A DNA stretch of 64,000 nucleotides from Methylocystaceae bacterium. GTDB lineage: Bacteria; Pseudomonadota; Alphaproteobacteria; Rhodospirillales; Terasakiellaceae. A model generated the notes under the pieces. That model was not told the DNA's origin. It worked only from the letters and a program-made list of their open reading frames with translations, and did no database searches. A program made the position numbers and the translations under genes. Positions within the stretch are counted from its first letter, which is position 1, and every line of letters starts with the position of its first letter. Location of the stretch: the NCBI GenBank assembly GCA_013373205.1, contig JABXIG010000003.1, forward strand, positions 310,001-374,000, written 5' to 3'. Of the stretch, positions 46,835-48,759 are shown one piece after another.

Positions 46835-47203
46835 TCAGTCGCCGAGGAAGTTTTTTACCGTTTCGATAAAGATCGGTACCGAGATGGGTTTCGAGATATA
46901 CCCGTCACATCCACCTTCCAGAATTTTTTCCTCATCACCTTTCATGGCAAAGGCCGTGACGGCGATGACGGGGATATGGGCCAAGCTCTCTTCGGCCTTG
47001 AGAATTTTTGTCACCTCAATACCTGAGATTTCCGGTAGCTGGATATCCATGATAACCAGATCGGGGTGATGTGTGCTCGCTAAATCTTTGGCGTCGTGGC
47101 CATTGCTTGTCTGTATTGTGTTGTAGCCATGGGCTTGCAAGAGATCGTTGAACAATTTCATGTTCATCTCATTATCTTCGACGATGAGAACTGTTTTTGT
47201 CAT
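46835..47203 (-). CDS. divK: Single-domain response regulator DivK
   Basis: This 122-residue receiver has acidic pocket EDNE near residue 10, phospho-acceptor Asp in [14 protein letters not shown] near 53 and Lys in YISKPISV near 105. Extended identity to DivK is seen in [19 protein letters not shown] and [21 protein letters not shown]. DivK controls cell-cycle and polarity kinases in alphaproteobacteria. A TTGACA lies upstream on the minus strand (47298-47293), but no good -10 pairs with it. Confidence 0.93.
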
Positions 47204-47364: not shown

Positions 47365-47482
47365 AAAAAAAAGGACTGCCGATGGGCAGCCCTTGAAAGT
47401 TTACTCTTGAGGGATAACGAATGGACCGGTGAAGATAATAGCCGCGTTAACACCACACATGTGGTGCACCAGTCCCGGCTAT
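47365..47482 (-). ncRNA. Small RNA, tandem copy 1 (distal)
   Basis: Predicted transcript of about 118 nt. From the 5' end: AUAGCCG (47482-47476), GGACUGGUG (47475-47467), a 6-bp hairpin CACCAC-AUGU-GUGGUG (47466-47451), UUAACG, CGGCUAU (47444-47438), six bases, then CACCGGUCC (47431-47423). AUAGCCG can pair with CGGCUAU and GGACUGGUG with CACCGGUCC; the order interleaves, giving a pseudoknot or alternative folds. A segment identical in copy 2 (47422-47398, including UUAUCCCUCAAGAGUAAAC) follows, then terminator AAGGGCUGCC-GGCAGUCCUU with eight U. The -10 is CATATT at 47494-47489, and a CRP-type site lies 41.5 bp upstream. No conserved ORF. RNA expression is predicted, not shown. Confidence 0.7.
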
Positions 47483-47515
47483 GTATGTAATATGCCGTAT
47501 CCTTCGTTGTGGCGA

Positions 47516-47531
47516 TGTGATGGCTATCACA
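47516..47531. promoter_or_regulatory. CRP-type site upstream of small RNA copy 1
   Basis: TGTGATGGCTATCACA fits TGTGA-N6-TCACA exactly. Its centre (47523.5) lies 41.5 bp from the predicted RNA 5' end at 47482, the class II activator position. Confidence 0.75.
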
Positions 47532-47557
47532 GGGTTAGGTTTTTTTACAAAAAAGAC

Positions 47558-47681
47558 AAAAAAAACCCGTAAGAAAAAAAATCTTACGGGTGAATAGTTT
47601 ACTCTTGAGGGATAACGAATGGACTGGTGAAAAATAATAGCCGCGTTAACACCGCACATACGGTGCACCAGTCCCGGCTAT
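47558..47681 (-). ncRNA. Small RNA, tandem copy 2 (proximal)
   Basis: Predicted transcript of about 124 nt, same organisation as copy 1 about 199 bp away. Helix A: AUAGCCG/CGGCUAU. Helix B: GGACUGGUG/CACCAGUCC, fully Watson-Crick, where copy 1 has a U-G pair. The inner hairpin is CACCGU-AUGU-GCGGUG: relative to copy 1, one A-U pair became G-C and one C-G became U-G with loop AUGU unchanged. The 25-nt segment after helix B is identical. The terminator is unrelated in sequence: CCCGUAAGA/UCUUACGGG with eight U (47558-47565). The -10 is CATATT at 47693-47688. Confidence 0.72.
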
Positions 47682-47715
47682 GTAAGTAATATGCTTTAGA
47701 TCAGCTCCGTTGCGA

Positions 47716-47731
47716 TGTGATGGCTATCACA
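47716..47731. promoter_or_regulatory. CRP-type site upstream of small RNA copy 2
   Basis: TGTGATGGCTATCACA, identical to the copy 1 site and 200 bp from it; the centre is 42.5 bp from the predicted 5' end at 47681. Confidence 0.75.
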
Positions 47732-47757: not shown

Positions 47758-47889
47758 AAAAGAAAAGCCATACAAGGTATGTATGGCTTGGGAAGTCTTG
47801 GGAATGAAAAAGTTCTTGAGAAACCGCTCGACCACTGCTCTCGTTAATGTCCGTTGGGTGGCGGACTGTGGTGTGCTTGTCTCTTCAAT
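47758..47889 (-). ncRNA. Third small RNA unit, unrelated in sequence
   Basis: Predicted transcript of about 132 nt with nested helices: UUGAAGAGAC (47888-47879) with GUUUCUCAA (47824-47816, one bulge, one G-U), ACCAC (47872-47868) with GUGGU (47835-47831), and GUCCG (47866-47862) with CGGAC (47853-47849). A pyrimidine-rich single-stranded part follows, then the terminator AAGCCAUACA/UGUAUGGCUU (47765-47789) with a U-rich tail. A CRP-type site lies 41.5 bp upstream of 47889 and CATTCT stands at the -10 position, as CATATT does in the tandem copies. The terminator could alternatively end the crp-like transcript. Confidence 0.55.
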
Positions 47890-47922: not shown

Positions 47923-47938
47923 TGTGACCATAATCACA
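47923..47938. promoter_or_regulatory. CRP-type site upstream of the third small RNA
   Basis: On the minus strand the site reads TGTGATTATGGTCACA, again an exact TGTGA-N6-TCACA. It lies 20 bp after the crp-like stop codon and is centred at 47930.5, 41.5 bp from the predicted 5' end. Confidence 0.7.
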
Positions 47939-47957: not shown

Positions 47958-48650
47958 TTAATCGCCACGCACATCTTCGACCATCTGGGAAAGTTCGTCG
48001 ATATTGCGCACAATCAGGCCATCTTTTTTGCGTTCCACAAAGCCCTTACGGGCGAGGTCATTCATCACGCGAGCGACGGTTTCACGGGTAGAGCTGATGC
48101 GTGATCCAATTTCGGAATGAATGGGGATGGGGGAAATAAAAGCTTCATCTTCATCGGTCATATTATCGCGCGCCTGGCGTAAAATTTCTGCATGGACCCG
48201 GTTGGCCGCCCCAAGCGTGGAAAGGTCCATAATCCGTTCGTTGGAAATGCGGATGATGTTTGCCATATTTTTCAGGACACGTTCTGCGACAATGGAATGT
48301 CCGGTCAAGAGAGCTATAAATCGGCTTTGCGGCATGGCAGCAAGTAATGATTTCTGAATTGCCATTACACTGGCAGAACGGGGCAGGCCATCAATGGCCG
48401 CCATTTCGCCAAATTGCTTGCCTTCGGTAAAGTCATCCAGCGTAATCTCTTTGCCGCCCACTGTGTAGATCACGATACGCACACGACCATCGACAATAAA
48501 AAAGACATCCGTACTTTCGGCTTGTCGGTCAATGATTTGTTCATTTGTATCATACCACTTCCAGCGGCACTGCTTATTGAGCTCTTCGATAACTTCAATC
48601 GGCAGACCGTCTAACAGGGCGATGTTTGCAAGTGTATGTTGTGCGCTCAC
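47958..48650 (-). CDS. CRP-family transcriptional regulator
   Basis: This 230-residue protein has a cyclic-nucleotide-binding beta-roll with a phosphate-binding cassette FGEMAAIDGLPRSASVMA (about 80-97) that keeps the Glu and Arg-Ser needed for cAMP. The winged helix near 175-205 has recognition helix STRETVARVMNDL; the R-E-T-V-x-R pattern is that of E. coli CRP, which reads TGTGA half-sites. No FNR-type Cys cluster is present. GTG at 48650 is chosen for its AAGGTC site and MSAQ start; the frame is open to 48758. Three TGTGA-N6-TCACA sites lie directly downstream, so it may control the small RNAs there. Confidence 0.85.
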   Translation of the reverse strand: MSAQHTLANIALLDGLPIEVIEELNKQCRWKWYDTNEQIIDRQAESTDVFFIVDGRVRIVIYTVGGKEITLDDFTEGKQFGEMAAIDGLPRSASVMAIQKSLLAAMPQSRFIALLTGHSIVAERVLKNMANIIRISNERIMDLSTLGAANRVHAEILRQARDNMTDEDEAFISPIPIHSEIGSRISSTRETVARVMNDLARKGFVERKKDGLIVRNIDELSQMVEDVRGD

Positions 48651-48715
48651 GCTTTTGACCTTATGGTTTAAAAGAACCTTATTGTGCAAGGATTTACCGT
48701 TTAGTGCAATAGTCG

Positions 48716-48759
48716 ATTGAATCGGAACCGATTCGAATTTGATTCGGGTTCGATTCAAT
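48716..48759. repeat. Nested GATTC palindromes upstream of the crp-like gene
   Basis: ATTGAATCG (48716-48724) and CGATTCAAT (48751-48759) are exact inverted repeats. Inside, GAATCGG (48719-48725) and CCGATTC (48728-48734) form another palindrome with a 2-base centre. GATTC/GAATC occurs at least five times in 44 bp. This may be a regulator-binding region for the crp-like gene. GANTC is also the CcrM methylation target in alphaproteobacteria, so methylation could matter. Confidence 0.45.

Follow-up and report, generated by a model that had tools for sequence, protein, structure and literature searches.

The enterobacterial small RNA (sRNA) CyaR (RyeE) is Hfq dependent and pairs through a C-rich region with Shine-Dalgarno sites. 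According to one published source (PMC8672173), CyaR is activated by CRP and Spot 42 is repressed by it. In the same source, VcdRP of Vibrio cholerae is CRP controlled, being repressed rather than activated, pairs in an Hfq-dependent manner via a run of four cytosines in its 3' portion, and carries a small ORF in its transcript (PMC8672173).

We analyzed a tandem pair of like units in a 64-kb stretch of DNA from a Terasakiella genome (referred to here as the window). The pair resembles CyaR in its putative activation by CRP and its putative mode of Shine-Dalgarno pairing; the likeness is functional, and no kinship is claimed. The layout differs from that of CyaR, the pair is linked to crp itself, and no Rfam family matches it. 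Spot 42 (RF00021) is likewise a CRP-linked sRNA, of carbon metabolism; its model scored 24.1 bits, below the gathering score of 80, and membership in that family was rejected. VcdRP (PMC8672173) is similar in plan to two f11 members of the wider family described below (G015 and G039), whereas the Terasakiella copies have no conserved ORF; this is a likeness of plan, with no sequence relation claimed. Among the titles and abstract openings listed in searches of the open-licence literature, none described a CRP-controlled sRNA of Rhodospirillales or the present family. We conclude that the units represent a new sRNA family of Rhodospirillales that is missing from Rfam and whose functional kind is known; its uncommon part is the modular conservation beside crp.

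Tandem predicted sRNA genes next to a crp-type gene

Direct reading of the sequence confirmed the two minus-strand units of the initial annotation, with a spacing of 199 bp. Both are intergenic: a Crp/Fnr-family gene (47958-48758) lies on one side and a response regulator gene (46835-47203), which we take by resemblance to be divK, on the other. The predicted first bases are 47681 (copy 1) and 47482 (copy 2).

47558..47681, minus strand: predicted sRNA, copy 1 (transcript of about 124 nt; start placed by CRP-box spacing and -10 element)
47365..47482, minus strand: predicted sRNA, copy 2 (transcript of about 118 nt; predicted start)
47558..47590, minus strand: intrinsic terminator, copy 1 (sequence and folding)
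47365..47394, minus strand: intrinsic terminator, copy 2 (sequence and folding)
47596..47620, minus strand: C-rich single-stranded conserved segment (seed), copy 1 (sequence and homolog comparison)
47398..47422, minus strand: C-rich single-stranded conserved segment (seed), copy 2 (sequence and homolog comparison)

Both terminators are on the minus strand and are unrelated to each other in sequence, and the 25-nt segment AUUCGUUAUCCCUCAAGAGUAAACU is identical between the copies, in agreement with the earlier description. In folding energy, each copy outperformed 200/200 dinucleotide shuffles (z, -5.4 for copy 1 and -3.8 for copy 2). Folding energy alone does not settle the strand because the opposite strand folds well too (z, -5.0 and -2.5; equaled by 0 and 2 of 200 shuffles). 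We assigned the minus strand from the T-runs of the terminators, the arrangement of the promoter elements, and the G-U pairs. Across eight homologs, 173/175 scored pairs were standard on the minus strand vs 166/175 on the plus strand, which bears out the strand-specific pairing proposed earlier. Each copy combines the features of a predicted sRNA gene, i.e., a CRP box, a -10 element (by eye), an intrinsic terminator, and an intergenic location, together with a covarying structure (helix B and the inner hairpin) and no conserved ORF. From these features, we infer transcription of both units.

CRP boxes and a third predicted sRNA

In CRP promoters, a box centered near -41.5 is in the class II position. 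The boxes of the pair are centered about 41.5 and 42.5 nt upstream of the predicted starts, i.e., at an activating position, and CATATT occupies -12 to -7 in both copies (by eye).

47716..47731, minus strand: CRP box TGTGATAGCCATCACA, copy 1 (exact TGTGAN6TCACA; center about -42.5)
47516..47531, minus strand: CRP box TGTGATAGCCATCACA, copy 2 (exact TGTGAN6TCACA; center about -41.5)
47688..47693, minus strand: -10 element CATATT, copy 1 (read by eye)
47489..47494, minus strand: -10 element CATATT, copy 2 (read by eye)
47958..48758, minus strand: Crp/Fnr-family regulator gene (cNMP_binding and HTH_Crp_2 domains)
47923..47938, minus strand: third exact CRP box, upstream of the third predicted sRNA
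47758..47889, minus strand: third predicted sRNA (ends set by box spacing and by eye)

The exact sequence TGTGAN6TCACA occurs three times in the window, each time upstream of one of three predicted RNAs; about 0.06 occurrences per 64 kb would be expected by chance (arithmetic, equal base frequencies). In all eight Terasakiella copies, the A of AUAGCC follows the center of an exact box by 41.5 or 42.5 nt, and a CRP-type box was found within 300 nt upstream in 28/28 placed members of the wider family. The regulator coincides with PDB 6dt4 ("Cyclic AMP receptor protein") in the R-S-A of the nucleotide-binding cassette and in the R-E-T-V-x-R of the recognition helix, and its closest solved structure by sequence is 7pza, a putative cAMP-binding catabolite gene activator. 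Judged from sequence, this neighboring regulator is likely the activator of all three predicted RNAs. The CRP boxes, the crp-type neighbor, and the third predicted RNA are absent from the initial annotation.

The third predicted sRNA resembles the tandem pair in plan: it has a CRP box of its own, and its 3' end reads UUUUUCAUUCCCRARACU followed by a terminator. It was detected in 6/6 Terasakiella genomes, with an exact CRP box ahead of it in 6/6. Three of the six loci scored 27.5, 26.0, and 24.6 bits against the Rfam family mmgR/suhB (RF00519), the best of which is below the gathering score of 41, and we rejected membership. This weak likeness is limited to the third RNA (47758-47889); the tandem pair has no match to mmgR/suhB.

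Compensatory changes in helix B and the inner hairpin

We aligned the eight Terasakiella copies (six genomes) and examined the three helices that had been proposed from the two window copies.

47666..47674, minus strand: helix B 5' arm, copy 1 (pairs with 47621-47629)
47621..47629, minus strand: helix B 3' arm, copy 1 (alignment of eight copies)
47467..47475, minus strand: helix B 5' arm, copy 2 (pairs with 47423-47431)
47423..47431, minus strand: helix B 3' arm, copy 2 (alignment of eight copies)
47650..47665, minus strand: inner hairpin, copy 1 (loop AUGU; 3/6 pairs changed on both sides)
47451..47466, minus strand: inner hairpin, copy 2 (alignment of eight copies)
47675..47681, minus strand: 5' arm of helix A (AUAGCCG), copy 1 (pairing with 47637-47643; of uncertain role)

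The arms of helix B (GGACUGGUG / CACCAGUCC, with CACCGGUCC in copy 2) are as previously described. Helix B was 100% paired across the eight copies and had one pair in which both bases had changed, and the inner hairpin was 97.9% paired, with three such pairs; the homolog comparison that had been suggested as a check thus revealed compensatory changes in both elements. The loop AUGU, described as fixed, is common to the two window copies and differs in the other six, from which its AUG is missing. For the three helices jointly, the covariation score was reached by 0/500 shuffles and the number of double-changed pairs by 9/500, the aligned rows being related.

The proposal that helices A and B interleave as a pseudoknot or switch was not supported. 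Helix A was 98.2% paired with zero compensatory changes (six of its seven pairs were invariant, and the seventh was broken in one copy; n = 8), so that covariation in both interleaved helices, the mark of an H-type pseudoknot, is lacking. Helix B with the hairpin was more stable than helix A with the hairpin in 8/8 copies, although an alignment gap weakens the helix B value of the copy G4b. If both helices formed in full, a linker of 6 to 7 nt between the 3' arms of A and B would have to span approximately 16 stacked pairs, for which, on geometric grounds, it looks too short. An A/B pseudoknot or conformational switch, e.g., one in which the seed is accessible in one structure and masked in the other, would fit the perfect complementarity of AUAGCCG to CGGCUAU over seven bases (intact in 7/8 copies) and the alternative proposed by RNAalifold, in which the 5' end pairs with GUUAU in the seed region. 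Against these points stand the missing covariation, the greater stability of helix B, the strained geometry, and the position of the CCCUC core outside both helices, and we consider such a structure quite improbable. Helix A is unproven; a mutually exclusive folding order during transcription, A and then B, is possible.

Homologs in Terasakiella and database searches

Among 60 genomes searched by blastn, the full-length RNA was found in all six Terasakiella genomes. A covariance model with strict filters recovered the same six and none of the 311 other genomes in a set of 317 Rhodospirillales genomes. Weak short blastn matches in G021 and G044 look unrelated on reading of the loci, and those in G033 and G049 are confined to the query's terminator. 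There are two copies in the window genome (G000) and in G004 and one in each other Terasakiella genome. The RNA adjoins the crp gene in every case, with the second G004 copy 1.4 kb farther away.

In Rfam, the whole 64-kb window gave 0 families at gathering score, and 15 family loci gave nothing but two tRNAs. The plasmid collection gave no match. An exact 18-mer search of contigs returned six stretches, four of which were on three contigs of G002, G003, and G004; the matches in Nitrospinota and Wenyingzhuangia lie inside long open frames and were taken as chance.

The location between two same-strand genes, where serial terminators would also cut read-through into divK, might suggest nonfunctional repeats or an attenuator of the crp-divK intergenic region. 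The units have promoter boxes of their own and compensatory changes, they are kept in four genomes that have no neighboring divK (G001, G002, G003, and G005), and their 3' module recurs across the order (see below), all of which makes this explanation highly improbable.

A 3' module shared across Rhodospirillales

The same 3' end was found by position, not by pattern, behind crp orthologs in L044, L049, and L054. The pattern CCCTCAAGAGYADACT matched 27/317 Rhodospirillales genomes vs 0/317 for the reversed pattern, and a class-wide search matched 0/384 other genomes (four of the 384 belong to Rhodospirillales). One of the 21 non-Terasakiella matches (L078) lies inside a coding sequence, pgk by eye, and was dropped from the family counts. 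When three positions were freed and a T-run was required, 26/317 genomes matched (i.e., the 27 minus the L078 genome), and the reversed pattern again gave 0. These 26 genomes belong to nine families (f1, f2, f4, f5, f11, f14, f18, f19, and f22) and 11/115 genera, so the distribution across the order is patchy. The recurrence of the core CCCUCAAGAGYADACU in nine families supports the earlier suggestion that the C-rich segment is a candidate target-pairing region. Within the module, position 7 was always A, position 11 was C or T, and position 13 was A, G, or T; the search pattern dictated the other 13 of the 16 positions, so the constancy of those is in part built in.

Outside Terasakiella, the module and its terminator were present in 20 genomes of eight other families. 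All 20 loci have an upstream CRP-type box (13 exact TGTGAN6TCACA and 7 with the GTGAN6TCAC core) and a G+C-rich hairpin with a T-run directly 3' of the module (by eye). In 14 of them, the HTH codons of a Crp-type gene are no more than about 460 nt away, and in four more, divK is within 230 nt; L074, which falls outside the position filter of the locus scan, was counted from locus reading and box placement. For the 16 members that belong neither to Terasakiella nor to f11, we placed the start 41 nt past the box center; in the minimum-energy folds, the first paired base was then +1 or +2 in 16/16. The folds were cut at this start, such that stems reaching farther upstream would be missed (in L074, up to three further upstream pairs are possible by eye). 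Helix B of Terasakiella starts at about +8 to +9. The members share a plan consisting of a box, a 5' stem, unpaired UUUCCCUCAAGAGCAAACU, and a terminator, and the 5' stems appear unrelated between families.

In one Terasakiella genome (G005), about 7.5 kb separate the sRNA 3' module from a second module and terminator (L173; G005:C1:2223600-2232600), and the second module copy carries G at position 9. A tyrosine recombinase gene lies beside the far copy, and a shorter recombinase frame and an AbiTii protein are encoded inside. The 7.5-kb segment looks like a defense-carrying island integrated at the sRNA 3' end.

The f11 transcripts are longer, and in G015 and G039, a single CRP-box transcript comprises a 32-aa ORF followed by the sRNA module. 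This arrangement would be expected if the RNA were dual functional or derived from a 3' untranslated region, the module having once been the 3' end of a CRP-controlled mRNA for a hydrophobic peptide of approximately 30 aa whose ORF was lost in Terasakiella. ORFs of 29 to 47 aa with M..KAF and a hydrophobic stretch were observed in L039, L041, L042, L043, L046, L051, L054, and L056 (downstream of crp) and in L082. They were present in 8/24 crp loci (L037 to L060), representing seven families, and in 7/8, a GTGAN6TCAC core (an exact box in 3) lies no more than 220 nt upstream, which is also consistent with such an origin. These ORFs possibly encode a CRP-controlled microprotein. Against a dual-function origin, such an ORF was absent from the 22 other module-bearing or Terasakiella crp loci scanned, the genomes of seven of the eight ORF-bearing loci have no module, and the one frame that traverses both window copies (73 aa, GTG start) is impossible in single-copy genomes. 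We therefore regard this origin as rather unlikely.

More broadly, and only tentatively, the loci might be read as one modular family, in which a near-invariant 16-nt 3' module sits on unrelated 5' domains (i.e., a short hairpin, a long stem, the Terasakiella domain of helix B and hairpin, or a microprotein ORF), is coupled physically and transcriptionally to crp, has moved between stand-alone sRNA and dual-function mRNA, and has kept one conserved partner throughout.

Target search and Hfq

The UCCCUC core of the seed is complementary to Shine-Dalgarno sequences (GAGGGA). Target prediction with the conserved segment, a check put forward in the initial annotation, yielded candidates in one or two genomes, none of them conserved. 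In the window genome, the 20-nt seed complement had no site at up to 3 mismatches besides the two sRNA genes. The pattern TTGAGGGAN{3,9}ATG gave 84 matches in the six Terasakiella genomes vs 19 for the reversed pattern, with 7 of the 84 being sRNA genes and one being the second G005 module copy; among ORFs of at least 35 aa compared, two homologous pairs recurred, each in 2/6 genomes.

The divK leader ranked 4 among 157 candidate starts of 59 window ORFs in pairing prediction. Strong pairing of this leader was found in 2/6 Terasakiella genomes and, for other families, in two (L069 and L092) of the six leaders listed for eight loci. A site in G004 (L017:1480-1523) is antisense to the seed at 22/23 nt, over the Shine-Dalgarno sequence and AUG of a 70-aa ORF between OsmC-like and ligA-like genes (names by eye); we rejected it as a target, since three better homologs (L021 to L023) have no site, with L023 carrying GAGGGAUGAUAUG. 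In the window genome, the leader UUUUUGAGGGAUAAACCAAUG of a 76-aa ORF (L124; G000 C54) has a predicted pairing energy of -34.6 kcal/mol with most of the RNA and is a single-genome candidate. An hfq gene was detected in 15/16 searched genomes of the 26 with the module, including the window genome; the exception is 88% complete.

The module is conserved beyond the needs of a seed of 6 to 8 nt, which Shine-Dalgarno blocking alone leaves unexplained. It could instead be a binding site, used either to titrate or modulate a protein or to pair with a single conserved RNA partner; its near-constancy over nine families, its length relative to a usual mRNA seed, and the lack of a recurrent target in the mRNA search would fit. 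We consider this unlikely, given that the search pattern imposed 13 of the 16 positions and that the UCCCUC core complements Shine-Dalgarno sequences.

Proposed function and implications

On sequence evidence, we consider it quite probable that each unit is a stand-alone trans-acting sRNA gene whose product would be CRP activated, Hfq dependent, and Shine-Dalgarno blocking. The crp-type regulator encoded next door would bind the box at about -41.5 (class II) and activate transcription. The RNA of approximately 120 nt would fold into a 5' stem (helix B and the inner hairpin), an exposed AUUCGUUAUCCCUCAAGAGUAAACU, and a terminator hairpin whose U tail would serve as the Hfq site; the sRNAs are probably Hfq dependent. 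The UCCCUC core would pair with GAGGGA Shine-Dalgarno regions of target mRNAs, resulting in repressed translation. In other words, the regulator probably switches the sRNAs on, and the sRNAs probably silence mRNAs. By analogy with CyaR, CRP-activated repression via Shine-Dalgarno pairing is the likeliest mechanism, and the gene duplication may raise dosage or permit divergence.

The family offers a testable posttranscriptional arm for CRP-type regulation in Rhodospirillales. With a conserved module and interchangeable 5' domains, it also provides a natural series on how sRNAs originate and change under a kept seed.
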